A stretch of 64,000 nt of DNA, from positions 62,001 through 126,000 of the IMG/VR virus record IMGVR_UViG_3300032309_001546; one strand, 5' to 3'. This DNA is from a virus. The stretch's first letter is position 1. Each line of letters opens with the position of its first letter. The translations under genes were made by a program, and so were the position numbers. This document shows, piece after piece, positions 30,887-47,639 of this stretch. A model generated the notes under the pieces. It was not told where the DNA came from, ran no database searches, and was given only the letters and a program-made list of their open reading frames with translations.

Positions 30887-30889
30887 TCA

Positions 30890-31745: not shown

Positions 31746-31763
31746 ATACTGTGTAGCGGAGTA

Positions 31764-31800
31764 AAAATAAAACCCCAACACATCCTACTGTGCTGGGGTT
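31764..31800 (-). terminator. Strong intrinsic terminator of the 31.8-32.24 kb non-coding unit
   Basis: AACCCCAGCACAG and TGTGTTGGGGTT pair around a short loop, followed by TTATTTTTAC on the minus strand. Confidence 0.82.
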
Positions 31801-32240
31801 CTATCTCTCTATCTCGCATTAGGACACTAGCAGGGTCACTACTAGTTACGAGTCTATCAGCCCAAGAGGAGGCTTATCCAAATCGTAATGCGGAATTGGC
31901 AACCGCACCTGTCTACTTACACTAGAACCCGACAGGCCCTTTCTAGTGCTTTGATACCCGACAACTACTGGTGTGGTATCTACTGGAGTCTTGAGCCCAG
32001 TCTACTCTCCTCCTGGGTACGCCTAACTAGGCTCACCATGCTCCCCCGAGGTTGGGAACATGGGTACGGGGCGCGTAACTGCCCCTTCCCAGTTTTTATG
32101 TTAAGCGGACTGGGAACCGCCCCTGTCTGATACATACCAGAAGCCGACAGGCCTCATCTGGTACGAGTAGCGGTAGCTACTATCCGCCATGTGAGGCGAG
32201 CGCAGCGAGCCTAATAGAATCCTATTACCTGGACTCTGTC
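31771..32240 (-). ncRNA. Candidate structured RNA with two linked double-pseudoknot units
   Basis: About 470 nt with no ORF, its own promoter cassette (32242-32272) and its own strong terminator. Unit 1 (31878-31948) and unit 2 (32086-32163) each have four interleaved helices: arm X, GCGG, arm X', CCGC, then CCTGTC, arm Y, GACAGG, arm Y'. X differs between units (CCAAAT/ATTGG against TTCCCAGT/ACTGGGAA). So does Y (CACTAGAA/TTCTAGTG against TACCAGA/TCTGGTA). Pairing is kept in both. Chained pseudoknots recall tmRNA, but no tRNA-like domain is present here. Confidence 0.65.
32190..32214. repeat. AGCGCAGCG-core hairpin
   Basis: GGC-GAGCGCAGCGA-GCC stem-loop near the 5' end of the candidate non-coding RNA; same core as the array at 32893-33080. 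Confidence 0.55.
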
Positions 32241-32241
32241 T

Positions 32242-32272
32242 GGCCATACTAGTAATGCAACTATTTTTGGCC
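32242..32272 (-). promoter_or_regulatory. Promoter cassette driving the 31.8-32.24 kb non-coding unit
   Basis: Minus strand reads GGCCAAAAATAGT, then TATGGCC after a short gap: the AAATAGT and TATGG elements of the repeated cassette. Confidence 0.5.
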
Positions 32273-32320
32273 GACCCTAGTAAAGGGGTTTCCCCCCGAG
32301 TAGGGGGGTTTCGTGGGGGT

Positions 32321-32360
32321 AAAAAAGTTCCCCTCCCACACTGTAAGTGTGAGAGGGGGG
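32321..32360 (-). terminator. Intrinsic terminator after the 32365-32844 gene
   Basis: CCCCTCTCACACT and AGTGTGGGAGGGG arms, then AACTTTTTTACC on the minus strand, 5 nt after the stop codon. Confidence 0.85.
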
Positions 32361-32364
32361 TTCT

Positions 32365-32844: not shown

Positions 32845-32892
32845 TGACGTTCTCCGTGGTAAGTGAGCCAAAGGCGGCTCATCATGAAAGGC

Positions 32893-33080
32893 GAGCGCAG
32901 CGATGCCTGTGCTGCGGCGTTGTTGCTGTTGCCTGCGTAGCGCAGCGGAGCAGGCTGTGTTGCTACCTGCGGAGCGCAGCGAAGCAGGGTAACCACGTAG
33001 CGCAGCGGAGTGGTGTGTCCTGTGGTTCTGATGAGCGTAGCGCAGCGGAGTGAATCAGAGGCGAGGACTCGGCGCAGCCC
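32893..33080. repeat. Array of hairpins with constant AGCGCAGCG core and changing stems
   Basis: Six adjacent stem-loops in the leader of the 32365-32844 gene. The core is G-N-AGCGCAGCG-N-A, flanked by self-complementary arms that differ each time: GGC/GCC, CCTGC/GCAGG (twice), CCAC/GTGG, TGA/TCA and GGACT/AGTATC-like. Relatives occur at 27953, 31725 and 32190. Confidence 0.7.
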
Positions 33081-33105
33081 AGCGGAGTATCTGGACTTTT
33101 TTACG

Positions 33106-33130
33106 ACTATTTGTACTATTTTTGTATTAT
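33106..33130 (-). promoter_or_regulatory. Promoter cassette for the 32365-32844 gene
   Basis: Minus strand ATAATACAAAAATAGT followed by a second AAATAGT; matches the repeated cassette but lacks a clear TATGGG element. Confidence 0.5.
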
Positions 33131-33157
33131 AGAAAGAATAGCCCATTGCTGGGCTAC
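33131..33157 (-). terminator. Intrinsic terminator after the giant gene
   Basis: TAGCCCA-GCAA-TGGGCTA followed by TTCTTTCT on the minus strand, just after the 33170 stop. Confidence 0.82.
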
Positions 33158-33169
33158 TCAATCTAATGG

Positions 33170-36100
33170 CTACTTCTTACCCGTGATACGGTTAAGACGT
33201 GCCGCGACACCGGCCTTCTTCTCCGAGGGAGCAGGGGCGGGCTTCTCTTCAGCCTCAACCTCGGCGTCGAAGTCATTGGGATCGATGAAGATAATCTTCA
33301 GGCCCGACTCTTCAGCGTAATCAACCGCATTCTTTGTACCGCCAGTGCTGCCATCCCAGACAGCAATGACGATATCGGCGCAGTCAATCATCTGCATGTT
33401 ACGGCGCTGCATGCAGAACTTGTCTTCGCCATAGGTCTTCTCGCTGACCTGGACGACTTCGCTGGCAACTTCCAGCATGTTCCAGTAGCGCTGCTTGGCT
33501 TCGCGGGGCCACATAGCCTCCTGCTCTACACAGGGGATCATGACCGTGAACGGGATACCCATCTCGTGCGCAATCTCTGCCGCATCCTGGTCAACGCCAA
33601 GGGCACCGCCAGTGATTAGCCAGAGCTTCTCACCGTGCTTGGCAAGACCACGCTCAAGCTGAGCCGCAATCTGTTCACGTACCCAGATGCGCTTCTCCGC
33701 ATTGGGATTGTATCCGCCGATCTTGTCGGGACGGTGACCAGTGAAGGCCACAAAGAAGTACTCCGTCTCTTCGGCTTCAACTTCCTCAGTTGCAGCCGCG
33801 ATCTTAACCTTGAAGGGATCGACATACAGCATACCGGGCTTGTAGTCTGCATACCCTTCGGGGCGGTTGTTGTGGGTAGACTTCGCGCCCGCAGGAGGAT
33901 TCGGCAGAGTGCTGACATCCCGCTTCTGGATGTAAAGCATTACTCCATCAAGTCGGGCTTCGTCATACCAGGCTTGAGGGCCCTTCTGGCGGATCTGCCA
34001 CTCGCTAAGGTCAACGCTATCAGCATCAAACTCGATGTAGGGGCCATGGTCCCCGTACACAATGCGTGCGTACTCGGTTGCAATAATGCTTCCATTCGGG
34101 GTTTGGATTTCCCCATCAAAGCCCTGACCATCCTCACGGAGTCCGAGTTTGGCTTCGACTTCACGCTTGTCGGCTTCGCGATTAGGCAAACCAAGCGTTG
34201 TGGACTTGAAGTCTTCGGACTCTTCGTCTTCGGCAACAGGGCACACAGCGGCCATCGAGGGGCCATTGTCTTCGTATCTGGCTTCGCAGGTCGGGCAGAG
34301 ACCGGCCACGAAATCCCCCTCGACTTTGCAGTCCTCACAGGCATTTGTGCAAATGCGGCAGCCAGCGCCCTCGCACACTTCGCACACAGATGTGGGGATG
34401 GACTCTTCTGCTTCTTCCTCAGTCTTGTTGGCAAGGCGCAGCAGGACGTCAGCGTGGCAGGCTTCGGGTGCACAATGGCAAATCAACGACTTGCCAGTAA
34501 GTTCTCCGAGGCTATCCATGAGATTAACCTGTGCCTTCACCCAAGCCTCGTACTTGGCAATGACTTCCTCACGGTTGCCATCGCGGCCAAGGACGAAGGG
34601 ATTACCCCACTTGCTGGGACGGCCAACGTATACCGCACCGGAAGGAATATCCTTATCTGCCCGGTTGTAGACGGCAGGTGCAGCGTTAGCAACGACCGGA
34701 GCGCTAGCCTCAGTGGCTTCAGACTCTTCGTCTTCGCTGTCCACCCAGCAATCGGTGTAATCGAAGCGGTCGCTGCTCTTGGCCTTCTCGTCTTCCTCAA
34801 AGACCTCGGACTCTTCCTCTTCGTCACCGTACTGGCTAGGGTCGAAGTCCGGGTTCTCTTCACCGAAGTCCGGCTCTTCTGCATCTTCCGGCTCGGGCAT
34901 CTCGTCAGCGTCCTCCGAGATGTCATACTCGTGCGAGGGCTCATCCTCGTAACCCTCCTCGTACGTATCCTCTTCAGGCTCATCACCAGAGAAGACATCG
35001 TTGAGATCCTCTTCGCCTCCACCCTGAGGACCGTTGTCGTCGCCAAGGAAGGTGAGGATCAGGAAGCTGTTCAAGCCCTGAGGCGCGAACCTGGTGCCAA
35101 CAGCCACGGTGCGACCCATGACAGTTTTACCATTCTCGTCCTTGGTCTTGATGTCGGGGTTCCACTCGGTAACCCACTCACGCTCCACAAGCTCTGCCTT
35201 CACCGCAGTACCCGGGAAGATCTCGATCAAGCGACGCAGGAAACCGAATGAGTCAGCAGCTTCAAGCGTGCTCATAGCGTTGAAGCTGTCGAGCTCAGCC
35301 TGCGCTTCTGCGATCTTTGTCTCGCTGGGCTTCTTGGCCTTCTTCAAGTCAGCCAGTGCGTGACGAAGCTCCTCACCCTTGTTCTTCCGACGAAGCTCGA
35401 TCTGACGACCGATTTCGCTGACAGTCGCAAGCTGACCCTCAAAGCCATTGGCCTCTCGACCATCGCTGATGCGCACGCCGGGCAGGCTGAGAAGACCATC
35501 GATCCCCCAGCCAAGCTTCTCGCCGTCACCGCCGAAGCCACCGCAGTTCTTCTCACCACGGATGTAGGCGAGGAGAGCTTCTGCGTCCTGGCGTACCGTC
35601 GGGGTACCACCCTTGCCCAAGTAGAGAGCAAGCTGACGGGCTTCACCGAGGCTGTTATCGTCGAGGCCGTTGATTGCGGCAATGCCATTGCTGGACATCC
35701 AGTCCGTGAGGTATTCCCAGGGACCGCCGACGAAGAACGCAGTGGTAGCGATACCGCCATTCGCCTTAAGGTTGCCATTGGCATCCTCGGTGATGGTGAT
35801 CTCAAGAGCCTGTGGCTTCGCATCCTTGCCGACCTTCTTGGCCTTCTCAGCAGGCTGCAGGTAACGATTGGCAAAGGCAAGCCAGGCCATCTTCACAGCA
35901 GCGTCGCGGTCTTCAGCCTCAAAGTTCTTGAGGATGTACGACTCGATCTGGGAGTCTACGAGTTCAATCGCCGCTCTGATGGGCATCGCCGAGTAGGCCA
36001 GCCAGAGTGCCTTCTTGGCACGCGAGATGTTGCCGCCAGCCAGCATTGCACTGACGACCCTGTAACGACGGTTGCTCTCGTGGCCTGCAGGAGCCATGAT

Positions 36101-39100
36101 CTTGTGGATCAGTTCCTGGTTGGTCCAAGCCTGGAGGTTCTTGAAGCTACCGGGGCTCCAGTTCCAGTAGAGCCAGGCCTCGGTCTCTTCGCCAGGGGCC
36201 TCGTCTTCCGTGCGACCAAGCCAAGCAGTGAGCGTCTGGTGCAGGACGTTCTGGCGACCAGCTTCCCACTGAGCATTGGCGAGGGATTCGACCTCATCGA
36301 TGCACCACTGGCGGTAGTCAGCCCAGAGGGTGTAGACCTTCGAGCTAAGCTCACCAGCGACGAGGTGGGTAACGATCTCGCCTTCTTCGTTGCGGACGGG
36401 AGCGGTCACCTTCGTGCCATTCTCGAACAGGGGCTGCATGTCTTCACCGAGGACAGCAACACGCTTGGCCGGGTCGACGAACAAGCTCTTCGCACCAAGG
36501 CTGAGCTTCCGCAGAACGGCAGGCACGAATGCCCAACCTTCACGGCCCTTGCCTTCGGTGACAAGGTCAAGCCAGACCTGGTAGACCTGCACCATCCGGT
36601 AGGATGCCCAGGCTTCAGCGTAACCCGTCATCTTGACCGCTGCGTCAACGATGTCGGACAACGTCACGCCGAAGAGGAGCGTCTCGGAGATCTCCTCACG
36701 AAGCTCCTCGAGGAAGGTAGGCAGCTTCACCCAGCCAACAGCCAGGGACATGCCGTAGATCTTCGCGTTAGCGACGATACCAATCGCCTTCTGGAAGACG
36801 TTCTCCTCCATGTTCATCACCGACTCGTACAAGCTCTCGTGGCTCATACCAGCAGTGGTGGCTTCGACCGGCGCTTCGGGCTCCGTAACGGCGGTAATGA
36901 CGAAGTTCTCCGTCTTCACCTTGAAAGCCTGACCGAGGATCGTGGCCGCGTTGAGGCGGGTCCACAGGCTCTTGTTCTCCGGGATACCGGCGACCATCTT
37001 AGCACGGAGCGCGTTCTTCTGTGCACGCTTCTCGGCGTTGAGCTTCGCCTTATCAGCAAGAGCGGTACGCCAGGCCAGACCCTTCACGATGAGCATGGCA
37101 AGCTTACCACGCGCAGTGGGGCAGCGGTCATCATAGTCCATGCCTTCGTTTGCCTGGAGCAGGAGGACTACCGTGTCTCCGCTCGCCGTGGTGAACATGA
37201 TCACCATACGGCCGCTTACGCCGATGATGAAGATATTCAGGCTTTCCGGCAGCTCACGGATCTCCGCAACCGTGCCCGACGTTTCGCCGGTGGGGTTACG
37301 GAAGAAGATTGCCAGGTTGGGCGCGCAGTTGTTCTTCGCCCAGCGAGCAAAGTTGGTGCAGTAGACAATAAGACGACCATCAGCCGTCTTCGTCTCCAGC
37401 TCCATGGTCTGCTTCGCCTTCGTAGCAACCTCCTCAGAGTGCTGCCCTTCAGCAATCCAAGCCGCATGCAGCATCGGCCAGAGGACCGGGATGGGGTAGG
37501 TTGCCCACAAGTCGCTTCCCTCCTCGGTAACAGGAGCGATCTTCATCGAGCCAGGCTCAATGTTCTTGCTCAAGGTGCCAACCAGCTGCTGTGCCAGCAT
37601 GCGGAAGGGGAGAACAGGGATTCGCATCGCGCCGAGGAGCTTCGCAAGAACGCTGTTGCGGTTGTCCTCGACCTTGGCCTCTTCGTCGCCAGCAACGAAG
37701 TCGTCAGCATCCTCGTCCAGACCCTTCAGGAAGTCGGGGAGACGCTTCTTGGCGTAGGCGATGTAGCCAGCAATGAGCTGGTAGAACTCCTTCGAGTTGA
37801 CCTCAGCTCCGAGAAGCATAAGGATCGACTGAAGCGACATAACCGCCTTCTCCTTCGTGAGCGCCGCAGTGCCGGGGATCCAGCAAAGGGCATAGTCGTT
37901 CTGGGTAGCGGACCACTCGGTCTTCACCTCACTGGCAATGATGCAGACGCCTTCAGGGAAGTACCGAGCCGGAAGCGGGATGCACATACCCTTGATCAGA
38001 CCTTCGCTGGTCAAGATACGAGCCACCATCGGAGCGGTCAGACCCATGGCCTTCGCCACGTCGGCACGGACAAGCACAAGGCCGTCGAAGAACTTGACCA
38101 GTGCAGCGGCAATCTTGCCCAGGTCCAGGACCTTACCCGGCAGGACAACGCGGGCAGTAACCCGCGAGATCCAGTACGAGTCAGCATACTTAGCAATGCG
38201 GCCCAGGGTCTTACCCTTGAACCGCAGAGCCGCCATGCTGACCTTCTTGGCTTCGGGCGTGCAGTAGAGGGTCATACCCTTCTGCAGAACCCGAATGGTG
38301 ACAAGGCCAAGCTTCTTAGCGTTGGCCACGGCATCGGTATCGTCGTCAGCGACAACGAGACCTTCGAGGAGTCCAGGGCTATCGTCAGCCGCAGGACTAG
38401 TAGCACACGCCTCCTCAAGGAAGGCTGCGAACGTGCCGGGAGTGCATACCCGGACTTTCTTGTTACCCATCTTGTTCTCCTTAGGGGTGGGTGCCCCGGT
38501 GTGCTTCGTCGAGGCCAGGATGATTCCCGGCTTAACGGAAGCTTTGGTGTCGTTGTTGGTGCTGGTGGCTTCACCGTTTAGGTCATTGTTGACCTCGGCA
38601 AAGATATCCTCGCAAGCCGCCATAAGACGAGCTGCGATGGCTGAGATGGCGTCGCTGGGGATGCCGGCATAGAGGCGGTCATAGCCACCTCTCATGGTCA
38701 ACTCGGTACCGTCCGCCTGGCAGACATTGCAGAATTGGCCCTTTGAGCCAAATCCTGCAACACCGCAACCGACGCAGGTCTCGGGCCCGCAGTCGGCTTC
38801 GCTGGGCTTAGCCTTAACCATGGCCTCGAGCTTCGTCGCAAGGGCATTGCCCACTACAACGAACAGGATACCGACGATGCCGACGACAAACAGAAAGCCG
38901 GGTCCTGCAAGGAACTCGGCCGGGCTCTTAGCCCAAGCGGCTTCGACCGCCTGGCTGAACGTGGGTGCTGCAGCGGCGAGTACGGCGATAAGCGGGGAGC
39001 TGGCCTTCACCGCATTGCGGCGTTGGCGGCTCAGTTCCCGCTTTCTGGTGCGCTTCTGGGCATCCTCAGTCGCCGTCATGGCGAAGAAGACGCTTGCGGT

Positions 39101-39967
39101 ATCCTGTGCGGACTTGCCCGTGTTACCACAGACAGCGGCTTCGATGCGCTTGGCAAGGGTGGTCTTGATGACCACAATCTTAGCGCCGATAGCTACGGGC
39201 TTCACAGGAGTAACCTGCTTGGCCTTTGCCGCCGCGATGTGCGCCGAGAAGGTCATGGCCTTCGTGACGCGGGGGAATTTCGCGACGGGCTTCGCAGCAG
39301 CCTTAGCGACGGGCTTCGCAACGGGCTTGGAGGCAGCCTTGGGAGCAGGCTTTACAGCGGGCTCAGCGACGGCTTCCACTGCCACTTCCGTGACAGCAGC
39401 AACCTCGATGGCAGGGGCAGGGGCAGGCTTCACAGGAGCCTTAGCGACAGGCTTGGCAATTGCCTTCGGAGCGGGCTTGGCGACAGCCTTGGGGATATGG
39501 ACCCCCTTCGACCGCAGCCAGCGGTCAAGGCGGATAGTGGTCCAGCAGTTACGCCGGGCCAAACGGGCTGCATGGCGGGTAAGCGCCTGCAGCCTGAGCG
39601 ACGCCGCCGACTGGGCAGCAACAGTCCGCCGAAGCGGAAGGACGATGGCGTATACGTTCGCCAGAAAACGGGCCACGAAGGCCAAGATGACACGGACCAT
39701 GGGATGGTCCTTACCCTCCGCGAGGAGGATTGGGGTGGTCGGCTTCACCGAATTGGCAAAGCGGACCACGAGGGAAGCGGGGATGCGGGGAGCGATGCGG
39801 GTTGCAGCCTCCGTGACCAGCACGAAGCTGGTGACGAAGAAGCTGACTAGGGCAGCGGCCTGCTGCGAAAGGGTGGGGGCCAGCTGGGCCTCCACGGTCA
39901 GCGCCGTTGCGAAAACGGCGAACACCACAGCCACGATGGCGGTGATGGCGAGTTGGATCCGAGACAT
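33170..39967 (-). CDS. Giant multidomain protein, 2265 aa
   Basis: AGGAGGTAACTC precedes the ATG. Order of parts: hydrophobic segments at about 5-27, 38-58, 88-110 and 368-392; a Lys/Ala/Pro-rich repeat at about 160-260; and a zinc ribbon (CVGC-x10-CNVC) near 410-428. A long central region of unknown fold follows. An acidic Glu/Asp linker runs to about 1765. A DUF4326-type domain (YVGRPSKWGNPF, CHCAPEACHAD) covers about 1768-1855, followed by Cys-rich knuckles (CEVC, CRIC, CEDC, CPTC) at about 1858-1895. A YpsA/DprA-like SLOG domain (FTGHRP, ITGGALGVDQDAAE) occupies about 2065-2245. No single function follows from this. A second strong ribosome site lies at codon 500. Codon use is GC-rich compared with the structural genes. 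Confidence 0.85.
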   Translation of the reverse strand: MSRIQLAITAIVAVVFAVFATALTVEAQLAPTLSQQAAALVSFFVTSFVLVTEAATRIAPRIPASLVVRFANSVKPTTPILLAEGKDHPMVRVILAFVARFLANVYAIVLPLRRTVAAQSAASLRLQALTRHAARLARRNCWTTIRLDRWLRSKGVHIPKAVAKPAPKAIAKPVAKAPVKPAPAPAIEVAAVTEVAVEAVAEPAVKPAPKAASKPVAKPVAKAAAKPVAKFPRVTKAMTFSAHIAAAKAKQVTPVKPVAIGAKIVVIKTTLAKRIEAAVCGNTGKSAQDTASVFFAMTATEDAQKRTRKRELSRQRRNAVKASSPLIAVLAAAAPTFSQAVEAAWAKSPAEFLAGPGFLFVVGIVGILFVVVGNALATKLEAMVKAKPSEADCGPETCVGCGVAGFGSKGQFCNVCQADGTELTMRGGYDRLYAGIPSDAISAIAARLMAACEDIFAEVNNDLNGEATSTNNDTKASVKPGIILASTKHTGAPTPKENKMGNKKVRVCTPGTFAAFLEEACATSPAADDSPGLLEGLVVADDDTDAVANAKKLGLVTIRVLQKGMTLYCTPEAKKVSMAALRFKGKTLGRIAKYADSYWISRVTARVVLPGKVLDLGKIAAALVKFFDGLVLVRADVAKAMGLTAPMVARILTSEGLIKGMCIPLPARYFPEGVCIIASEVKTEWSATQNDYALCWIPGTAALTKEKAVMSLQSILMLLGAEVNSKEFYQLIAGYIAYAKKRLPDFLKGLDEDADDFVAGDEEAKVEDNRNSVLAKLLGAMRIPVLPFRMLAQQLVGTLSKNIEPGSMKIAPVTEEGSDLWATYPIPVLWPMLHAAWIAEGQHSEEVATKAKQTMELETKTADGRLIVYCTNFARWAKNNCAPNLAIFFRNPTGETSGTVAEIRELPESLNIFIIGVSGRMVIMFTTASGDTVVLLLQANEGMDYDDRCPTARGKLAMLIVKGLAWRTALADKAKLNAEKRAQKNALRAKMVAGIPENKSLWTRLNAATILGQAFKVKTENFVITAVTEPEAPVEATTAGMSHESLYESVMNMEENVFQKAIGIVANAKIYGMSLAVGWVKLPTFLEELREEISETLLFGVTLSDIVDAAVKMTGYAEAWASYRMVQVYQVWLDLVTEGKGREGWAFVPAVLRKLSLGAKSLFVDPAKRVAVLGEDMQPLFENGTKVTAPVRNEEGEIVTHLVAGELSSKVYTLWADYRQWCIDEVESLANAQWEAGRQNVLHQTLTAWLGRTEDEAPGEETEAWLYWNWSPGSFKNLQAWTNQELIHKIMAPAGHESNRRYRVVSAMLAGGNISRAKKALWLAYSAMPIRAAIELVDSQIESYILKNFEAEDRDAAVKMAWLAFANRYLQPAEKAKKVGKDAKPQALEITITEDANGNLKANGGIATTAFFVGGPWEYLTDWMSSNGIAAINGLDDNSLGEARQLALYLGKGGTPTVRQDAEALLAYIRGEKNCGGFGGDGEKLGWGIDGLLSLPGVRISDGREANGFEGQLATVSEIGRQIELRRKNKGEELRHALADLKKAKKPSETKIAEAQAELDSFNAMSTLEAADSFGFLRRLIEIFPGTAVKAELVEREWVTEWNPDIKTKDENGKTVMGRTVAVGTRFAPQGLNSFLILTFLGDDNGPQGGGEEDLNDVFSGDEPEEDTYEEGYEDEPSHEYDISEDADEMPEPEDAEEPDFGEENPDFDPSQYGDEEEESEVFEEDEKAKSSDRFDYTDCWVDSEDEESEATEASAPVVANAAPAVYNRADKDIPSGAVYVGRPSKWGNPFVLGRDGNREEVIAKYEAWVKAQVNLMDSLGELTGKSLICHCAPEACHADVLLRLANKTEEEAEESIPTSVCEVCEGAGCRICTNACEDCKVEGDFVAGLCPTCEARYEDNGPSMAAVCPVAEDEESEDFKSTTLGLPNREADKREVEAKLGLREDGQGFDGEIQTPNGSIIATEYARIVYGDHGPYIEFDADSVDLSEWQIRQKGPQAWYDEARLDGVMLYIQKRDVSTLPNPPAGAKSTHNNRPEGYADYKPGMLYVDPFKVKIAAATEEVEAEETEYFFVAFTGHRPDKIGGYNPNAEKRIWVREQIAAQLERGLAKHGEKLWLITGGALGVDQDAAEIAHEMGIPFTVMIPCVEQEAMWPREAKQRYWNMLEVASEVVQVSEKTYGEDKFCMQRRNMQMIDCADIVIAVWDGSTGGTKNAVDYAEESGLKIIFIDPNDFDAEVEAEEKPAPAPSEKKAGVAARLNRITGKK
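38470..38485 (-). promoter_or_regulatory. Internal ribosome-binding site at codon 500 of the giant gene
   Basis: AAGGAGAACAAG directly before an in-frame ATG at 38470 (MGNKKVRVCT). Spacing is ideal, so a 1766-aa shorter product is likely made. Confidence 0.6.
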
Positions 39968-40004: not shown

Positions 40005-40205
40005 TAGGGAAGCATTCCCTATGACCGACATACCAGTGTCTTGTAACACACTGGAAGATTTCTGGTCCTTTATGGGAAGGACCCTGTTTAAAACCCTGGC
40101 TTTCTGTTCGCTCCGGCATTGACCCATACTACCTTCTTGGAAGATACTGGGGTGCCATTCGAACTATCCGGCCCATTGCGACCACCCCTTAGCAGAGAGC
40201 TGGTC
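40005..40205 (-). promoter_or_regulatory. Structured 5' leader of the giant gene
   Basis: About 240 nt between promoter and ATG hold a chain of hairpins: ATAGGGAA/TTCCCTAT at 40012-40030, CCAGTGT/ACACTGG at 40032-40054, GGTCCTT/AAGGACC at 40063-40082, and GACCA/TGGTC at 40179-40205. It may control translation or mRNA stability. Confidence 0.5.
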
Positions 40206-40212
40206 CACATTT

Positions 40213-40242
40213 TAGCCCATAGTAGTGCAACTATTTAAGTAT
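40213..40242 (-). promoter_or_regulatory. Promoter cassette for the giant gene
   Basis: ATACTTAAATAGT, then TATGGGCTA on the minus strand, immediately after a short terminator hairpin at 40258-40269 with T6. Confidence 0.6.
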
Positions 40243-40257
40243 CGTACAAAAAATACC

Positions 40258-41815
40258 CTTCCTGGGAAGTTCATTAAAACACTTACACACCCAGTGTGCA
40301 GTTTGCTCAACGCATAAATTACTAGTCTGATACTTGTTAACAGACCAGCGATCTATACGCCGTGAACCCATCCAGGGACGCCAGGAGCCTTGCCTCCGTC
40401 CTGGGATTAGCTTCGCACATTAGCATGACATAAAGCGTTTTATCCCTTAAAGGATTCTTGCGCTGCAGTCTTCTTCTCCCACTACATTACTAGACTAGAG
40501 GTTCAATGGGCCTCTATGCTAGGGATCTTGCCGCCGAATTGCGCGAGAAGATATAACCATCCTACTCCTTTTGAGAGCAAGAGCATCTAGTAATTACCTG
40601 ACCTATGTGTAGTTATCTATGGGCAAACAGATCCTAACAAGAACTGAACCTCTGGCAGCGGTTTCTTGTTAGTTTAGGCGTACAAGCGCCTATCCCCTCT
40701 TATACGTGCATGCCTGGCAGTCATCACATACTAATTGGGGGCTGATCTTTTGCTTGCATAGTGATTTGGGTTCTTCTTACCAGTAAGAGCGGCGCTACTC
40801 GCTAAAACCAGTATATAGGGTGTTTATAACCCAATCCAAATGCAAACGGCTCCTCGGTATTTCAACCGAATCACAGCCTTCTACAAGTGTCAAGTGTGGG
40901 AGTCAAAGACACAGCATCCTTCTTGGGACGCTTTGTGTCATACTTCTGTTACGAAGCTAAAGCAACGAATCTCACCATCTCACAGACCAGGTCCTGTCTA
41001 CACAGTAATCAACTGTATAGCGGTTATCTGATCTGTCCTCGTTGATTCCTCGTTATCTCTGCAGAAGGGCTACCGCTTAAAGTAGAAATCCTCCTGGATA
41101 ACTTGGTCCACCGGCCACACCTGCTAGAGTGCGCCTACTCTGTCTCACGACAGTTGGGGAATTATGCAGCATTTACTCTGTAAAAACAGGGAAAGGGTTC
41201 AGCACTTGCCGCCTTGCTTAAGGGCGGGAGTTTGCCTATCACGAGATCTGCTTGTGTCGGTTTTGCGGGGTGTTTTTGTTGAGGTTCCCCTTTTGCCTCC
41301 TTTTTTAAAGTCCGTACTCTCTTTCGAGGACAACAGACTTAGTGCGCGTAATCAACGCTTGGGAAAGTTAAAACCCATATAGTCATCTTTGGTGAGGGAT
41401 GACGCCCTACTGCCGACAGGCAGACCCCTAAAATCTCTATTAGCCATACTTGACATCCACACCACCGACATATTAGGAGCTTTCGCCCCCGGAAGAACTG
41501 TTCCTCCTTGGTGTTTCAGTCTGTGTTGCAGGCCGTACGAGATCTTAGGTTGACAGTTTTTCTGCTACCGACTTTTAGGGATTGCTCCCTCCGCCGGATT
41601 TATGCAGGAACACAGTTTTGGCTGTTAGCCTAGCTGCTTATACTGTCCTCGTGTCCTCTCCGACCATCCACCTTTGGGCATGGCCAGATACTGCACAAGT
41701 CAACGAACCGGTAAGATTCGTTGCTTATTTTTTATGGGGCGTTAACTACGTGCAAAACCTTGCCAACGCTGATCCCCACATATGGTCACTCCATATGTTT
41801 AAGACTCCACTGTTT
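40258..41815 (-). ncRNA. Candidate long structured non-coding transcript, about 1.6 kb
   Basis: No plausible gene occurs, yet the segment is bounded by the same promoter cassettes (41817-41904) and by a terminator-like hairpin with T6 at its minus-strand end. Strong stem-loops include CTAACAAGA/TCTTGTTAG at 40634-40671, GACACA/TGTGTC near 40908-40938 and TCGGT/ACCGA near 40854-40869. Others are GTCTG/CAGAC near 40325-40345 and a GGAG/CCTCC-topped hairpin at 40370-40404. The size and ornate folding recall phage-encoded GOLLD and ROOL RNAs; identity is not established. A possible plus-strand terminator (GAGG/CCTC then CTTTTTT) sits near 41280-41308. Confidence 0.55.
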
Positions 41816-41816
41816 A

Positions 41817-41861
41817 GCCCATAGTATTCTTTTGACGACTATTTTTGGACTATTTGAGTAA
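41817..41861 (-). promoter_or_regulatory. Promoter cassette (downstream copy) for the 1.6-kb non-coding unit
   Basis: Minus strand TACTCAAATAGT, a second AAATAGT, then TATGGGCTA. Confidence 0.5.
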
Positions 41862-41873
41862 AGTAAAACAATT

Positions 41874-41904
41874 TAACCCATAACTATACAACTCTTTGAG
41901 TATT
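41874..41904 (-). promoter_or_regulatory. Promoter cassette (upstream copy) for the 1.6-kb non-coding unit
   Basis: Minus strand AATACTCAAAGAGT, then TATGGGTTA. The preceding hairpin GCCC-GCGTTAA-GGGC with TATTTTTT (41905-41932) terminates the MazG-like gene. Confidence 0.5.
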
Positions 41905-41999
41905 AGAGAAAAAATAGCCCTTAACGCGGGCTAGACGTGCTTTTCTGTTCCCAAGAAGCAACTCTCGGATGGGCACCACCCCATCAGGCACCTCCCGTT

Positions 42000-42287
42000 T
42001 CAGGGAGACGGGCACTCCCCATCTTTGAGGTGACGCTTGCTGCGCACACAGCCGTATTCGGCCATGCGAGCCTCCACCTTGCGAAGGTGAAGAGTGTCAC
42101 CCCAAACCGAGATGTAGGGTTTATTAGCCAAAGCTCCGAGAAGCCGGCCAATTCCCCACATCACGTCGGAAGCCTCGTCCTTGAGTTCTTCAAGGTTTTT
42201 AACCTCGAAAAGCTCTACTGCCTCTTCGGCAATATGGACGATAGCAACCCGGATGGGAAGCACCTCAAGACATTTACAGAAATGCAT
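42000..42287 (-). CDS. MazG-like NTP pyrophosphohydrolase-fold protein, 95 aa
   Basis: Possible nucleotide pyrophosphohydrolase of the all-alpha MazG/dUTPase-like superfamily. The metal motif EExxE...ExxD is visible: AEEAVELFEV near residues 20-29, followed by LKDEASDVMWG near 36-46. AAGGAGTCTACAG precedes the ATG. It is short, about one MazG domain. MazG homologues cleave (d)NTPs; the MazZ branch makes dGMP for Z-DNA phages. Which applies here cannot be told from the sequence alone. Confidence 0.65.
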   Translation of the reverse strand: MHFCKCLEVLPIRVAIVHIAEEAVELFEVKNLEELKDEASDVMWGIGRLLGALANKPYISVWGDTLHLRKVEARMAEYGCVRSKRHLKDGECPSP

Positions 42288-42357
42288 CTGTAGACTCCTT
42301 GTGGTAATGCTGTATGCAGTACAGCGCTGTGAGTAAAAGGATCTTTACTTCACTGTT

Positions 42358-42419
42358 TAGCCCAGACTAGTGTACTATTTAAGTATGTTTCAAAGAATGA
42401 CCCATCTTGCGATGGGTCA
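42358..42419 (-). promoter_or_regulatory. Terminator-promoter cassette upstream of the MazG-like gene
   Basis: Hairpin TGACCCATC/GATGGGTCA (42398-42419) with TTCTTT, then ATACTTAAATAGT and TGGGCTA on the minus strand. Confidence 0.6.
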
Positions 42420-42445
42420 CTCAGTGATGTCTCTCTTCCCTTTCT

Positions 42446-42808
42446 CTACTTCCGCCAGGCCCCAGTACGAGCCTCGACCACAGTCTTGAGGTTGCAGTAG
42501 AGGTTGCCCACCGCATAGCGGCAGGGGGTAGCGGTGGTCAGCCAGTCCTCGTTGGACTGAAGGTCGGGACCCTTGGCCATGGCCAGAGAGTAGCGAGCTT
42601 CCTCTGACAACTGGCATTTGGCCAGAGTCTTGCGGTGCACCGAGACCTTGACGGTGTCGATCTCGCCGCTGAAAGAAGCCGCCACGTGGTTCCAGCCGAT
42701 GGCCTTGAGGGCCTCGACGATCTCCGTCTTGTAGACCGAGACGGGAAGGGTGGGGGGGAAGGAGATAAGGAGCGCGCTATCCGTCACATCATTGATCTTC
42801 TTGCACAT
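42446..42808 (-). CDS. Hypothetical protein, 120 aa
   Basis: Start at 42808, with GGAGGAAACC before the ATG. Begins MCKKINDVTDSALLISFP. Alpha/beta-looking small protein with no known motif; GC-rich codons. Stands alone between terminator-promoter cassettes, with a leader hairpin GGCAG/CTGCC near 42845-42865. Confidence 0.65.
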   Translation of the reverse strand: MCKKINDVTDSALLISFPPTLPVSVYKTEIVEALKAIGWNHVAASFSGEIDTVKVSVHRKTLAKCQLSEEARYSLAMAKGPDLQSNEDWLTTATPCRYAVGNLYCNLKTVVEARTGAWRK

Positions 42809-42874
42809 GGTTTCCTCCATTGGAAAGGCGGTGTGGCGCACCGTGGCAGGGGGTAGAATCTGCCATCTTCTAGT

Positions 42875-42928
42875 TCATAGTAGGACTATTTAAGTACTAT
42901 AGATTACTTACCCCACCTTGCAGTGGGG
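42875..42928 (-). promoter_or_regulatory. Terminator-promoter cassette upstream of the 120-aa gene
   Basis: CCCCAC/GTGGGG hairpin at 42911-42928, then AGTACTTAAATAGT and TATGAAC on the minus strand. The hairpin lacks a long T run. Confidence 0.55.
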
Positions 42929-42953
42929 CTTTCATCTACCTCAACCTCAGCTC

Positions 42954-43100
42954 TTAGTCCTGCATGCAGCTCCACGAGATGCCGATCCAGGACAGGATCA
43001 GAAGACCCGCGCAGACCGGCTCCATCACGCCAGAGCCAAAGCTCCAGCCGAGGGTGCAGGTTGCGAGGAGGAAGCTGGCGGTAGCGATTGCATTCTTCAT
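42954..43100 (-). CDS. Small membrane protein, 48 aa
   Basis: Encodes MKNAIATASFLLATCTLGWS, then a second hydrophobic stretch, so probably two membrane helices or a signal plus helix. GGAGAATGTC precedes the ATG. Unknown role. Confidence 0.6.
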   Translation of the reverse strand: MKNAIATASFLLATCTLGWSFGSGVMEPVCAGLLILSWIGISWSCMQD

Positions 43101-43159
43101 GACATTCTCCAGTTTGGCATCATTCTTTACGAAGTGTAAAGCTATGTATGCCCACAGCC

Positions 43160-43217
43160 TAGCCCATACTACTATTTGTGTATCCTAGAAAAGATAGCCC
43201 ACCTCCTCAGGGTGAGC
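43160..43217 (-). promoter_or_regulatory. Terminator-promoter cassette upstream of the 48-aa gene
   Basis: GGCTCACC/GGTGGGCT hairpin, where a G-T wobble pairs only in the minus-strand RNA, then ATCTTTTCT, ATACACAAATAGT and TATGGGCTA. Confidence 0.6.
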
Positions 43218-43244
43218 CATCCTATCTATCCTCAATCGCTCTAG

Positions 43245-43424
43245 TTACTCGCTGCGGTCAGCAAGCCAACCACCACGACGCACCGACTGGCGGCACGCGA
43301 GGCAGTCACAGCCCCAAAGGGCGTCGGCGATGTCGCTTTCCCAGGCAAACTCCTCTTCCTCCGTGAGGAGGACGATGAGCTCGATCTGAAACAGGGCGAG
43401 GATCTTGACAAGAATCTTGTCCAT
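43245..43424 (-). CDS. Small protein, 59 aa
   Basis: Start at 43424, with AAGGAGTTAGCC before the ATG. Begins MDKILVKILALFQIELIVLL, a hydrophobic segment, then acidic residues and a CDCLAC pair. Probably membrane-associated. Unknown. Confidence 0.6.
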   Translation of the reverse strand: MDKILVKILALFQIELIVLLTEEEEFAWESDIADALWGCDCLACRQSVRRGGWLADRSE

Positions 43425-43476
43425 GGCTAACTCCTTTACGAGTGGGGACGACATTATCCCAAAGCTGGCCAAAGAT

Positions 43477-43531
43477 TAACTCATAGCAGTACAACTATTT
43501 ATGTATTGTCGATTACTTACCCCTTACGGGG
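43477..43531 (-). promoter_or_regulatory. Terminator-promoter cassette upstream of the 59-aa gene
   Basis: CCCC/GGGG hairpin at 43520-43531, then AATACATAAATAGT and TATGAGTTAA on the minus strand. Confidence 0.55.
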
Positions 43532-43549
43532 CTTTCGTCGGGTTGCTCT

Positions 43550-43810
43550 CTACTTGTCGCCGCATACCGGGAGTGGCGTGCCGTTAGGCACGTCACTCAT
43601 CGGGTGTGGGTGAGTCGCAGAGAAGTCTACAATCCACCACCGCCAACGGGTTTCCCCGCTAAGGCTGCAGTCGATCTCAACAAGCTCGTCCTCAACGCAG
43701 TACCCAGCAACCTTCGGCTCGATCGTACCGGTGGTCGGCACGGGGAGCGTGTTGTTGCTGGAGCAAGCGGTGAGGAGCGAGGCAAGCAACGCGATCTTCA
43801 ACTTATCCAT
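43550..43810 (-). CDS. Predicted lipoprotein, 86 aa
   Basis: Start at 43810, with AAGGAGATCTC before the ATG. The N-terminus MDKLKIALLASLLTACSSNN is a lipoprotein signal with lipobox LTAC (Cys16). The mature part has two further Cys and Trp-rich segments (WRWWIVDF). It could be an outer-membrane spanin subunit or a surface-exclusion lipoprotein; no family is recognised. Confidence 0.68.
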   Translation of the reverse strand: MDKLKIALLASLLTACSSNNTLPVPTTGTIEPKVAGYCVEDELVEIDCSLSGETRWRWWIVDFSATHPHPMSDVPNGTPLPVCGDK

Positions 43811-43852
43811 GAGATCTCCTTTCGGTTTGGGTGACATTACCCATCTCACCGT

Positions 43853-43906
43853 TTAGCCCATAGGACTGTTTAAGTATTGTTCAAAGAATAGCCCGCCTAA
43901 GCGAGC
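43853..43906 (-). promoter_or_regulatory. Terminator-promoter cassette upstream of the lipoprotein gene
   Basis: GCTCGC/GCGGGC hairpin with TATTCTTT, then ATACTTAAACAGT and TATGGGCTAA; a GGGT-AATGTC-ACCC leader hairpin follows. Confidence 0.6.
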
Positions 43907-43934
43907 CACTCGATGATGCAGTCTACCTCATCCT

Positions 43935-44135
43935 CTAGTCATCGAATCCATACTGCCAAAACAGCGAGGACACGATGGCCATGCCGATCAGCACGATCGT
44001 TGCGAACGTGCCGAGAGCGTTGAACAGGTTCTCGGGGCCGGCGACCCGAAGCCAGTTGTCCATGAGGCAACCAGCGAAGAACATATTCAAGAGGTGAACG
44101 AAGACGCGGACAATGTTCCAGAGAACCTTAACCAT
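43935..44135 (-). CDS. Small membrane protein, 66 aa
   Basis: Start at 44135, with AAGGAGTCTGTC before the ATG. Two hydrophobic stretches (VRVFVHLLNMFFAGC and FATIVLIGMAIVSSLF) make it a likely two-helix membrane protein. Unknown. Confidence 0.62.
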   Translation of the reverse strand: MVKVLWNIVRVFVHLLNMFFAGCLMDNWLRVAGPENLFNALGTFATIVLIGMAIVSSLFWQYGFDD

Positions 44136-44192
44136 GACAGACTCCTTTCTAGTAATATTCCCCAACGAAATGCGGGGCTATATCACCACACT

Positions 44193-44256
44193 TTAACCCA
44201 CACTACTTGAACTATTTAAGTACAGTAGAAAAGATAGCCCACCTTGCGGTGAGCCA
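44193..44256 (-). promoter_or_regulatory. Terminator-promoter cassette upstream of the 66-aa gene
   Basis: GGCTCACC/GGTGGGCT hairpin with ATCTTTTCT, then GTACTTAAATAGT and TGTGGGTTAA on the minus strand. Confidence 0.6.
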
Positions 44257-44276
44257 GAGCTTCCCTGATTGTGGAC

Positions 44277-44567
44277 CTAAGGCTTGTTAGCCAAGTGGTC
44301 CGTGATGGCCTTGCTGTTGCCCTGCGAAGGGCAGCACCCAAACTCGCGGAACCAGTAGTCCCGCTTGTTATGCCACTTCTTCTTGGCGGCCTTCTTCCGA
44401 GCCTCGCTTGCCTTTTTACGGGCAGCACGGACAGAGGCGCGAATCTTGCGAGCCTGCTGACGAGTTTCCTCGTCAACAAGCCCGCAGAACAGGATCATGA
44501 AACCCGTTCCTGCACCCCCGAGAAGAATGACGGCGAAAATCAATCGCAACCACATCATCGAGTCCAT
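44277..44567 (-). CDS. Membrane-anchored basic protein, 96 aa
   Basis: AAGGAGGTTTGTT precedes the ATG. One N-terminal membrane helix (LRLIFAVILLGGAGTGFMIL) is followed by a very basic helix full of Lys, Arg and Ala. The tail may bind nucleic acid or ribosomes at the membrane. Unknown. Confidence 0.65.
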   Translation of the reverse strand: MDSMMWLRLIFAVILLGGAGTGFMILFCGLVDEETRQQARKIRASVRAARKKASEARKKAAKKKWHNKRDYWFREFGCCPSQGNSKAITDHLANKP

Positions 44568-44634
44568 AACAAACCTCCTTTACGTTAGGTTAGCGCTCTG
44601 CGAATCTGCAGTTTACGCCATGTCATGTCACCTT

Positions 44635-44686
44635 CTAAGTCATACTATTTAAGTATCTTAGAAAAAATGACCCGTCCAAAGACGGG
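44635..44686 (-). promoter_or_regulatory. Terminator-promoter cassette upstream of the 96-aa gene
   Basis: CCCGTC/GACGGG hairpin with ATTTTTTCT, then ATACTTAAATAGTATGACTTAG on the minus strand, where the two elements abut. Confidence 0.6.
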
Positions 44687-44725
44687 CCATGTTCCCTTGC
44701 CCACCCTAAGGTGAGCCGTTGCTCT

Positions 44726-44968
44726 TTACCTGAACGGAACGTACAGGTAGAGAGCGCGACGATTGAACCCAGTCGCCTTGTGGATGCTCGCGAAGAGCCG
44801 GTATTCCGGGGGCGAGCTGGTCATGGCGCTGTAAACGCCACGTGCGACCTGGTAGCCGCATCTGCTCCCGCGGTTCTCGAAGGCAGTCCAGGCCGCAGCC
44901 TGAGACAGCCAGTCGAGAAGACGATCCTCCTCTGTCTTGGGGGTCGTCTCGTTGGTGTTGTTGCTCAT
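44726..44968 (-). CDS. Hypothetical protein, 80 aa
   Basis: Start at 44968, with AAGGAGGATAAA before the ATG. Begins MSNNTNETTPKTEEDRL; helical, soluble, ends in a basic aromatic stretch. Shares a GGCAG/CTGCC leader hairpin with the 120-aa gene. Unknown. Confidence 0.62.
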   Translation of the reverse strand: MSNNTNETTPKTEEDRLLDWLSQAAAWTAFENRGSRCGYQVARGVYSAMTSSPPEYRLFASIHKATGFNRRALYLYVPFR

Positions 44969-45029
44969 TTTATCCTCCTTGAAGGTTGCAGTGTGGCGCA
45001 CTGGGCAGGGGGTAGAATCTGCCATATAT

Positions 45030-45097
45030 TAACTCATAGCAGAACTCTGTAAGTATTAGAGAAGAAATACCCCACCCTAGCATAAGCCAAAGTGGGG
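45030..45097 (-). promoter_or_regulatory. Terminator-promoter cassette upstream of the 80-aa gene
   Basis: CCCCAC/GTGGGG hairpin with TATTTCTTCT, then AATACTTACAGAGT and TATGAGTTAA on the minus strand. Confidence 0.55.
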
Positions 45098-45123
45098 CAA
45101 TCCTCTAGTCCATCAACCAGTTA

Positions 45124-45351
45124 TTACCAGTTGAAATCCTGCTCAACATGATGGAGCACCTCAGTGCCAAACACGCTGAACCGAATCAACAGTCGAAGGC
45201 GCACAGGGGTGCCACCCTCGATGCCGTGGTGCTGCAGCCCAAAGGCCACAAGATTCTTCCACCCACGGCCGGGGTGGGGAGTGGTGTCAATGACAACACC
45301 GTTCACCATGGTCTCAACCTCAAGCAACTGCATCTCGGTCGTGATCATCAT
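45124..45351 (-). CDS. Hypothetical protein, 75 aa
   Basis: Start at 45351, with GGAGGATAAG before the ATG. Begins MMITTEMQLLEVETMVNG; strand-rich. Unknown. Confidence 0.62.
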   Translation of the reverse strand: MMITTEMQLLEVETMVNGVVIDTTPHPGRGWKNLVAFGLQHHGIEGGTPVRLRLLIRFSVFGTEVLHHVEQDFNW

Positions 45352-45441
45352 CTTATCCTCCATTGAAAAGGAAGGGAATTTCACCCCACCCGAGAACACT
45401 CTCAGGATTTGAAGTTCATAGAAAATTTGAACCTCCACACT

Positions 45442-45498
45442 TTAGCTCATACTATTTAAGTATATAAGAAAAGATGGCCCATCCTCTCGGACAGGCCA
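45442..45498 (-). promoter_or_regulatory. Terminator-promoter cassette upstream of the 75-aa gene
   Basis: GGCC/GGCC-ended hairpin with ATCTTTTCT, then ATACTTAAATAGTATGAGCTAA on the minus strand. Confidence 0.58.
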
Positions 45499-45551
45499 CC
45501 TAAGCTAATACAAGCTGACTCAAGGGCTCAAAGGATCAAGCTCTCAATCAA

Positions 45552-45752
45552 TCAATGCCAGGGATTACGCCCAGCAGGATTGAAGAAGCCGCGACGGGCG
45601 CACTCACGCTTGATCTCCTCGCGCCTCTCTTCCATATCCCGGCAGTAGCTGTTGCCCCAGCCGTACTGGCTGTGGAAACGGACATCATCCGCGAGAAGGT
45701 TGACGGAAATGAGGGAATTGCAGTTCCGAATCTCAATCTTCAACTTATCCAT
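45552..45752 (-). CDS. Hypothetical protein, 66 aa
   Basis: Start at 45752, with GGAGGTTTGCC before the ATG. Begins MDKLKIEIRNCNSLISVN; charged C-terminus with CARRGFF. Unknown. Confidence 0.62.
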   Translation of the reverse strand: MDKLKIEIRNCNSLISVNLLADDVRFHSQYGWGNSYCRDMEERREEIKRECARRGFFNPAGRNPWH

Positions 45753-45806
45753 GGCAAACCTCCAGGTTGAAATCACTCCTATGAAATATAGGTAGTGTGC
45801 CAAATG

Positions 45807-45861
45807 TTAACTCATAGTAGTACTCTGTTAGTATGTTAGAAAAGATAGCCCCCGAAGGGGC
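45807..45861 (-). promoter_or_regulatory. Terminator-promoter cassette upstream of the 66-aa gene
   Basis: GCCCC/GGGGC hairpin with ATCTTTTCT, then ATACTAACAGAGT and TATGAGTTAA on the minus strand. Confidence 0.58.
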
Positions 45862-45892
45862 CAGAGCTTGACCAGAGCGTGAGCTCTAGTTA

Positions 45893-46156
45893 CTACTTGT
45901 ACATCGCCTTAATGAAGGCGTTCTCGATGGCGCGAACCAGCTGCCAGCTCGCGTTCATCTCCTTGTCCAGGTCCCAGGAGGAACCGTCCTTGGCCTCGAT
46001 GTCCTTGAGGCGGGAGATCTCGACCTTGATCGTGCTAAGCGTGTTCCGAAGCTCCTCATGGGAACCCTCTTTGATACCGTTGTTGTCAACAGAATCATTG
46101 AAGGTTGCCCAGCAGGTCTCCGCAATCTCGCTCATCTGGATCATGCTCTTGTTCAT
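45893..46156 (-). CDS. Hypothetical helical protein, 87 aa
   Basis: Start at 46156, with CGGAGGATAAG before the ATG. Begins MNKSMIQMSEIAETCWAT; all-helical, charged. The leader has the GGGTGAAATTCCC-type hairpin. Unknown. Confidence 0.63.
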   Translation of the reverse strand: MNKSMIQMSEIAETCWATFNDSVDNNGIKEGSHEELRNTLSTIKVEISRLKDIEAKDGSSWDLDKEMNASWQLVRAIENAFIKAMYK

Positions 46157-46244
46157 CTTATCCTCCGTTGGTTGGAAGGGAATTTCACCCTGCCCGAGAC
46201 AATTCCCAGGACTTGAAGCTAGTAAGATTACCAACTCCCACATG

Positions 46245-46300
46245 TTAACCCATAATACTATTTGAGTATCTTAGAAAAGATAGCTCGCCATTACAGCGAG
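46245..46300 (-). promoter_or_regulatory. Terminator-promoter cassette upstream of the 87-aa gene
   Basis: GCTCGC/GCGAGC hairpin with ATCTTTTCT, then ATACTCAAATAGT and TATGGGTTAA on the minus strand. Confidence 0.6.
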
Positions 46301-46313
46301 CCAGAGCTAATCT

Positions 46314-46670
46314 CTAACGCCAGTTGTGAACAATGCTGAACCAGGGTTGAACCAGGTCAGCCGGAAGCTCCTTGTGGAGCTTATCCGTGATTTCCCTCCA
46401 CTCCAGCATGTGCTGGTAGCGGATAGAGGACGGGATCTCACGGTTGTAGCCGTGGAACCCCTCAAACCAAGCGACGAACACCTGGATATCCTCTGCAGTA
46501 GCCTTGCGAGCCTGATCCCTAATCTCCTCAAGGGAGACCTGGGCAGCAGACTTGACGGCAGGAGCAACGTTGACAGTCTTGACGCTCTCCTTCCCGAAGG
46601 GGAAGAAAAGAGTAACAAGGCCGACGACGAAGCAAAGAGCCATCAAAGCGACAAGAATAACGTTCAACAT
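46314..46670 (-). CDS. Membrane-anchored protein, 118 aa
   Basis: AGGAGGTTTGCC precedes the ATG. N-terminal membrane helix MLNVILVALMALCFVVGLVT, then a soluble helical domain with Trp residues (FVAWFEGFHGYN, EWREITDKLHKEL). Likely exposed in the periplasm or cytoplasm from the inner membrane. Unknown. Confidence 0.66.
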   Translation of the reverse strand: MLNVILVALMALCFVVGLVTLFFPFGKESVKTVNVAPAVKSAAQVSLEEIRDQARKATAEDIQVFVAWFEGFHGYNREIPSSIRYQHMLEWREITDKLHKELPADLVQPWFSIVHNWR

Positions 46671-46724
46671 GGCAAACCTCCTGGTTGAAATCGTTCCTAT
46701 GAATTATAGGTAACGTGCCACAAG

Positions 46725-46779
46725 TTAAGTCATACTATTTGTGTATGTAAGAAAGAATGACCCACCTTGCGATGGGTCA
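46725..46779 (-). promoter_or_regulatory. Terminator-promoter cassette upstream of the 118-aa gene
   Basis: TGACCCA/TGGGTCA hairpin with TTCTTTCT, then ATACACAAATAGTATGACTTAA on the minus strand. Confidence 0.6.
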
Positions 46780-46789
46780 CTCAATCAGG

Positions 46790-46981
46790 CTACAGAGAGA
46801 AGTATCTCTGTGACCACACGACGGACAGGCTGTTCCACGTACCCCAGGTCAGGGTGCTATGGCGGGTGTGCTTGTCCATGCTGCGGTCGATGACATCAAG
46901 CTCCTTGCGGGAGACTGCCGAAGCAATCTCTTGAAGGAACTTCTTTGCCAGGTACTCATTAGACGCGACATTGATTCTCAT
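46790..46981 (-). CDS. Small protein, 63 aa
   Basis: Begins MRINVASNEYLAKKFLQ; GGAGATAGACA before the ATG, leader hairpin GGGTAATTTCACCC upstream. Helical, soluble. Unknown. Confidence 0.6.
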   Translation of the reverse strand: MRINVASNEYLAKKFLQEIASAVSRKELDVIDRSMDKHTRHSTLTWGTWNSLSVVWSQRYFSL

Positions 46982-47018
46982 TGTCTATCTCCATGAAGGG
47001 TGAAATTACCCACATACT

Positions 47019-47071
47019 ATCCCATACTATTTAAGTATAGGAGAAAAAATGACCCATCTCTCGATAGGTCA
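47019..47071 (-). promoter_or_regulatory. Terminator-promoter cassette upstream of the 63-aa gene
   Basis: TGACCTATC/GATGGGTCA hairpin with ATTTTTTCT, then ATACTTAAATAGTATGGGAT on the minus strand. Confidence 0.6.
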
Positions 47072-47084
47072 TTGATCCTAGTAC

Positions 47085-47573: not shown

Positions 47574-47639
47574 GATTGACTCCAAGACAAAGGGCGGAAT
47601 TGCCCACACACTAGCCCATAACGGTACAGGCGGTCGATC

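Follow-up and report, generated by a model that had tools for sequence, protein, structure and literature searches.

An array of 16 repeated cassettes was identified on the minus strand at 40.2-47.1 kb of a 64,000-nucleotide stretch of viral DNA (the window, bases 62001-126000 of the 145,919-bp record IMGVR_UViG_3300032309_001546). All cassettes follow one common plan, in the order terminator hairpin with T-tract, 13-bp element A (nTACnnAnAnAGT), spacer and 22-bp element B. They are probably composite terminator-promoter cassettes, read by the host RNA polymerase and doubling as joints for the shuffling of genes. The hairpin would end the upstream minus-strand message, and B would act as a sigma-70-type promoter without a -35 element, with transcription from the A or R of YTAR. 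The host RNA polymerase, or the host core carrying a phage sigma-70-like factor, would then make a separate short message from each small gene, and shuffling of gene bodies at the common cassettes would give an array of interchangeable one-gene units. The array heads the leftward arm; it is most likely a host-takeover region and would be transcribed early. A travels with the terminator, and could be an upstream promoter element, a regulator site or an inherited scar.

A sequence-only reading of the DNA had described about 15 minus-strand gaps of the same layout between 40.2 and 47.1 kb. This was borne out with corrections, as 16 copies could be aligned, and a 17th B, without A, was found beyond that range at 47.62 kb (position 47,620), at the head of the array. 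TCTTTTCT, expected in every gap, was exact in only five of the 16, most of the others being T-rich variants. The downstream motif TATGRGYTAA was present, but the element reaches further, to AnTAS upstream and TGTGG downstream, and alignment of all copies gave the consensus AnTAS-TATGRGYTAR-nnTGTGG. In the window, exact TATGRGYTAA was limited to the minus strand between 40.2 and 46.3 kb. Matches to ATACTTAAATAGT with at most one mismatch were all in minus-strand orientation and fell between 40.2 and 47.04 kb, with 0.08 expected by base counting, and with at most three mismatches 58 matches were found versus 27.4 +/- 5.1 in shuffled sequences. The related copies reported at 33.1 and 32.25 kb were incomplete; the first is a hairpin with A and no B, the second only a partial A with a degenerate TATGGCC.

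Terminator-like sites were enriched at 30-49 kb (30 versus 16.8 +/- 4.3 in shuffles), and the strongest were mostly on the minus strand. The GGG of the hairpin 3'-arm, the A before the T-tract and the greater part of that tract were located at constant offsets from element A, and terminator and A are therefore regarded as one rigid module. The suggestion that G-T wobbles pair only in the minus-strand RNA agreed with the folding results: one to five G-U pairs were present in all hairpin regions but one, and for most the minus strand gave the more stable fold. The array adjoins a divergent AT-rich region (47.65-48.04 kb) separating the leftward and rightward arms. GC content is about 39% overall and mostly 45-62% at 26.5-47.5 kb. 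Genes of the left part are mostly on the minus strand and the structural genes on the plus strand; the plus-strand genes elsewhere in the phage are closely packed, with few intergenic gaps.

Element B was compared with textbook sigma-70 -10 frequencies, which may differ from the promoter consensus of the host. Positions T0, T2, G3, T7, A8 and T14 were invariant at the 17 sites. A -10-like hexamer (T in 15, A in 12, any base, T in 17, A in 15, T in 17) was followed by G in 17, R in 17 and G in 14 sites, with a purine at the proposed start. Two registers scored best, TASTAT at -3 (mean 3.06) and TARnnT at +7 (mean 3.19), 10 bp apart; the remaining registers scored 1.6 or less, and the overall mean was -3.08. 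TASTAT was preferred, since G-R-G, a favoured discriminator, comes after it and an invariant T-A-purine then occupies the expected start. A further, statistically weak argument is that the stems of the leaders frequently start at positions 13-17 and would be cut through by a transcription start at 18-19. Judged from these bases, B reads best as a sigma-70-like promoter with the -10 TASTAT, the discriminator GRG, a start at YTAR and no -35. YTAR is a likelier place for the start than the position just after AAATAGT that was first envisaged, since the conserved element common to all cassettes lies further downstream. No -35 was found upstream of B, with 2.35 of six matches compared to 2.47 in control positions, so that the earlier remark that this is not an ordinary -35/-10 pair was correct. 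A scan for sigma-70 -35/-10 pairs gave no excess (12 found, 11.9 expected). Element A was rejected as a -10 by inspection, its invariant bases being a misfit, and 5' stem-loops were weakly supported as a strong common feature.

A 22-bp matrix made from the 17 B sites was used to scan 2.06 Mb of loci. Sites in the array scored 15.5-32.4 bits, and above 14 bits the shuffled null yielded 1.2 hits for each 146-kb strand. Across the 145.9-kb phage record no site above 21 bits was found outside the array, and motif enrichment upstream of other phage genes gave nothing convincing. In other loci a lone site in L205 scored 28.5 bits and another in L206 scored 26.2 bits, together with a few weaker single sites. 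The L205 site, at 346-420 of a separate 11-kb viral contig, is a single near-perfect B (AATAGTATGGGCTAGTGTGTGGGTAATT).

The proposal that the motifs indicate a phage-specific or modified RNA polymerase was not supported. No match to a bacterial-type beta subunit (PF00562) was found with the controls working, B resembles a sigma-70 -10 followed by GRG, and the sigma factor of the phage is 68-84% identical in relatives without B. No match to a T7-type RNA polymerase (PF00940) was found either, but here the controls were silent too. Promoter-early stem-loop (PeSL)-like cassettes with new motifs, carried by an unrelated lineage and read by host RNA polymerase, are therefore preferred to a phage-specific polymerase. 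It is possible, but unlikely, that the phage's sigma factor itself recognises B and that the array is transcribed in the middle or late period. The phage encodes a 368-amino-acid (aa) sigma-70 region 2 protein without a Pfam region 4 hit, which together with a B lacking a -35 recalls phiEco32 gp36; this factor is without region 4 and reads the single element tAATGTAtA (PMC8948821). The C-terminus of the present sigma still resembles a degenerate region 4 by eye, however, and B is confined to the array and is not placed before other genes. Relatives keep the sigma yet have no B at the syntenic locus. The likeness to phiEco32 lies in a phage sigma encoded in the genome and a single conserved element with no -35, while the element itself (TASTATGRGYTAR here) and its placement differ.

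The gap between A and B, measured from AGT to TATG, had been given as 0-10 nt. The actual values were -1 (four sites), 2 (three), 5 (three) and 8 (four), with a single 7; at the last site of the tandem pair B was 25 nt from one A-like copy and 14 nt from another. Eleven of the 12 distinct spacers were in one phase modulo 3, for which P would be about 1.4e-4 if they were independent, although repeat copies are not fully so. Since the spacers resemble TAC/TAG/TAT triplets, triplet slippage is the cheapest explanation of the 3-nt steps. It is improbable that A and B together make up a bipartite promoter or regulatory site separable only in 3-bp steps, an arrangement predicted by no known -35/-10 or activator geometry. 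If true, triplet spacing would be sensed by some phage factor or through a translational mechanism that reads frame. Most improbable is a transcribed two-codon minigene, ATG-RGY-TAR, in which transcription would start upstream near A and the 3-nt steps would be a reading frame. The held phase fits such a minigene, as do the stop, TAA or TAG at all 17 sites, and the start-like NTG three bases on at 16 of the 17. One site has CTG, however, and is out of phase. In-frame upstream stops also occur at varying distances and starts are mostly missing, for which reason the A-B stretch was also ruled out as coding. Most of the same invariant bases are accounted for by a -10, discriminator and initiator, and slippage in TAC/TAG repeats would yield 3-nt steps without selection.

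One-gene transcription units, as first proposed, were consistent with the gene layout. Fourteen open reading frames (ORFs) of 48-162 aa were each found with an upstream cassette or B, most of them with a GGAG-type ribosome site. Together with a 2265-aa ORF and an ORF-free stretch of 1.5 kb they appear to form separate units, with a minus-strand hairpin and A/B at nearly every boundary. No confident family was found with Pfam, PHROGs or PADLOC among the small array proteins tested, and a search for homologues of one of them returned an identical relative only. The leaders of cassettes 46746/45834, 46269/45463 and 45056/42897 aligned with z = 31, 20 and 19, and the coding parts behind them were unrelated. 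The best z between coding parts was 6.9, due to a common gene start in another pair, and similarity in one further ORF pair was confined to the first codons (MDKLKI). Because three leader pairs are duplicated on unrelated ORFs, the cassettes may well be recombination joints. Unrelated genes with common leaders would also be expected if the cassettes were mainly scars of recombination or transposition and B were not a promoter, and relatives do place other repeated elements there, such as GGCTCCTTCGTCGCC. This explanation is very improbable, as genes behind strong terminators would be silent without a promoter, and the -10-like, discriminator and start-like bases of B are sharply conserved.

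The phage terminase was 22-30% identical to those of GenBank phages and 81-100% identical to those of IMG/VR contigs, including records of 174-176 kb. A tblastn search gave six matches, the best being Moorella phage MTATph1 (29.5%), and no classical T4 record. Judged by this comparison and by a Pol III-type polymerase, the phage is not T4-type. The contig set suggests fresh water as the source. At the syntenic locus, large or giant ORFs are found in relatives G003, G006, G007 and G008, and those at the position of the 2265-aa ORF are 1471-3763 aa. Short terminator-bounded units were clearest in G003 and G007, where GGCTCCTTCGTCGCC and CTCCGCT elements replace A and B; relatives keep a similar terminator-separated layout with the cassette sequence apparently exchanged. 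B was not found in those loci of the relatives that were read. On the plus strand, the divergent region of every relative examined also contained a conserved B-like core, TGGGCTAAAA (TGGGCTAAAAA in some). When viral contigs were scanned for the pattern A with B, clusters appeared, among the matches listed, only in the phage and a near-identical 43-kb relative. Scans for terminator with A and for B gave clusters in the same two only, the other two B matches being single sites, including L205. No match to the array or to the wider 20 kb was found in the phage DNA collection.

An A-like sequence directly follows the terminator of the giant gene in G007 (CTAAAATAGTCC) and G003 (ACTTACAGAG), as at 33.1 kb here, suggesting that A is older than the array and can be separated from B. 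In mycobacteriophage L5, the stoperators are 13-bp asymmetric intergenic sites in one orientation, spread over the genome. A is likewise 13 bp, asymmetric, intergenic and always in the direction of transcription, at a rigid distance from the terminator, and it could be an operator through which a phage regulator controls the B promoters or the terminators. The A-like copies after terminators without B would suit such a role. Such an operator is unlikely, since A is restricted to terminator-adjacent positions of a single array region, unlike the genome-wide stoperators, and no repressor or integrase gene was noticed, without a systematic search for either.

Several observations weigh against cassettes of a host-read promoter and terminator. 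TARnnT scores equally, exactly 10 bp downstream of TASTAT, and the start could be near position 18-19. The 5' stem-loops showed only a marginal excess of structure over coding controls (p = 0.08). Two of the 16 cassettes (43506 and 42897) carry AAGTAATC instead of a T-tract, and the hairpin of cassette 40242 is weak (-5 kcal/mol). The 3-nt spacer steps are predicted by no promoter model. Finally, the elements in the arrays of relatives are, by their sequence, unlike sigma-70 promoters.

Table 1. Cassettes and related elements in the window; gap is the A-B distance and ORF the reading frame downstream of the element.
Feature	Coordinates	Strand	Gap (nt)	ORF	Remarks
B alone	47604..47625	-		47573-47085	TATGGGCTAG TGTGTGGG; no A; array head
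Cassette 47038	47010..47073	-	-1	46981-46790 (63 aa)	Hairpin, T-tract, A, B
Cassette 46746	46718..46782	-	-1	46670-46314 (118 aa)	Leader in common with 45834
Cassette 46269	46238..46303	-	2	46156-45893 (87 aa)	Leader in common with 45463
Cassette 45834	45800..45863	-	5	45752-45552 (66 aa)	
Cassette 45463	45435..45501	-	-1	45363 or 45351-45124 (75-79 aa)	
Cassette 45056	45022..45099	-	5	44968-44726 (80 aa)	Leader in common with 42897
Cassette 44656	44628..44690	-	-1	44567-44277 (96 aa)	
Cassette 44223	44186..44256	-	8	44135-43935 (66 aa)	
Cassette 43877	43846..43911	-	2	43810-43550 (86 aa)	
Cassette 43506	43469..43532	-	8	Ending 43245 (59-69 aa)	Hairpin without T-tract
Cassette 43183	43152..43223	-	2	43100-42954 (48 aa)	
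Cassette 42897	42863..42929	-	5	42808-42446 (120 aa)	Hairpin without T-tract
Cassette 42386	42350..42422	-	7	42287-42000 (95 aa)	Sole phase exception; B start is TCTGGGCTAA
Cassette 41903	41866..41933	-	8		First member of tandem pair
Second tandem A-like and B	41807..41861	-			TATGGGCTAA at 41823; without own terminator; heads ORF-free 1.5-kb unit
Cassette 40242	40205..40275	-	8	39967-33170 (2265 aa)	Weak hairpin
Terminator and A-like element	33110..33159	-			No B; downstream of 2265-aa ORF
Partial A and degenerate B	32240..32270	-			AAAAATAGT and TATGGCCAGA

Some features of the array and its surroundings were observed in addition. Two leaders on the minus strand (46149-46206 and 45344-45402) contain GGGCAGGGTGAAATTCCC or a near copy, resembling the P2 arm of the flavin mononucleotide (FMN) riboswitch; both matches fell well short of the Rfam threshold (E 0.087 and 3.1). 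The unit at 40287-41806 on the minus strand, about 1.5 kb with its own tandem cassettes, contains no minus-strand ORF of at least 60 aa. A 941-nt part of it folds with z = -3.76, no Rfam family matched the unit and no similar DNA was found in the phage DNA collection. It is a candidate for a large structured non-coding RNA. The 2265-aa protein (33170-39967, minus strand) has C-terminal DUF4326 and YspA/SLOG domains. More terminator-bounded, apparently non-coding units, conserved in relatives, were seen at 31000-32260 (minus strand) and in G003, G006 and G007. In this region, unit X showed two-sided changes at 12 of 77 pairs in three sequences, but also 23 non-pairing cells, and unit W at 13 of 52 pairs in two sequences. 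Repeated hairpin units (CCCTGCC..ATAGACATGGGG) at 31000-31450 on the minus strand end in the tRNA T-arm-like GGGTTCGATTCCC; no tRNA was found there by ARAGORN. At 27900-33100 on the minus strand, repeated GCTCGCTGCGCTCGCC or CTCCGCT precedes genes, and seems to correspond here to GGCTCCTTCGTCGCC of the relatives.

The closest known arrangement is the PeSL cassettes of T4-type phages (Arbiol 2010 and Comeau 2014, as cited in PMC4503421 and PMC4177764), which have been proposed as recombination joints (PMC4503421). As far as these accounts describe them, the likeness lies in a stem-loop terminator followed by a promoter, the two forming an intergenic unit that recurs between small genes of unassigned function, with evidence of shuffling. 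In the present array the hairpin at its fixed offset from A, with the putative promoter B downstream, forms one intergenic unit, and cassettes stand beside different genes, the three homologous leader pairs on non-homologous genes pointing to shuffling. A PeSL-type host promoter with both -35 and -10 was not found, as TASTAT was present and the -35 no better than control. The present cassettes differ further in the rigid element A, the 3-nt-stepped spacer, the downstream TGTGG and the non-T4-type phage. The putative promoters and terminators among many small genes also recall the host-takeover modules of SPO1-like phages and Kayvirus, with their host-type promoters and Rho-independent terminators. 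In Kayvirus 515A1, 58 early sigma-70 promoters and 42 terminators were described, with 35 units for 238 ORFs and promoters consisting of a -10 with a TRTGN extension (PMC7698491). Unlike 515A1, nearly every gene here stands alone, and the cassette is a single repeated sequence. Stop-start separation of genes is thus known from other phages, while these signals and the 3-nt spacing rule match nothing found. If starts map to B, the array would provide a natural series of about 16 variants of a promoter lacking a -35, their spacers ranging from -1 to 8 nt, in which the role of the upstream element could be tested. The array is real and striking, a lineage-specific form of an organisation already known, and it indicates that composite terminator-promoter cassettes, described in T4-type phages, are also found in an unrelated lineage from fresh water, where the signals differ.

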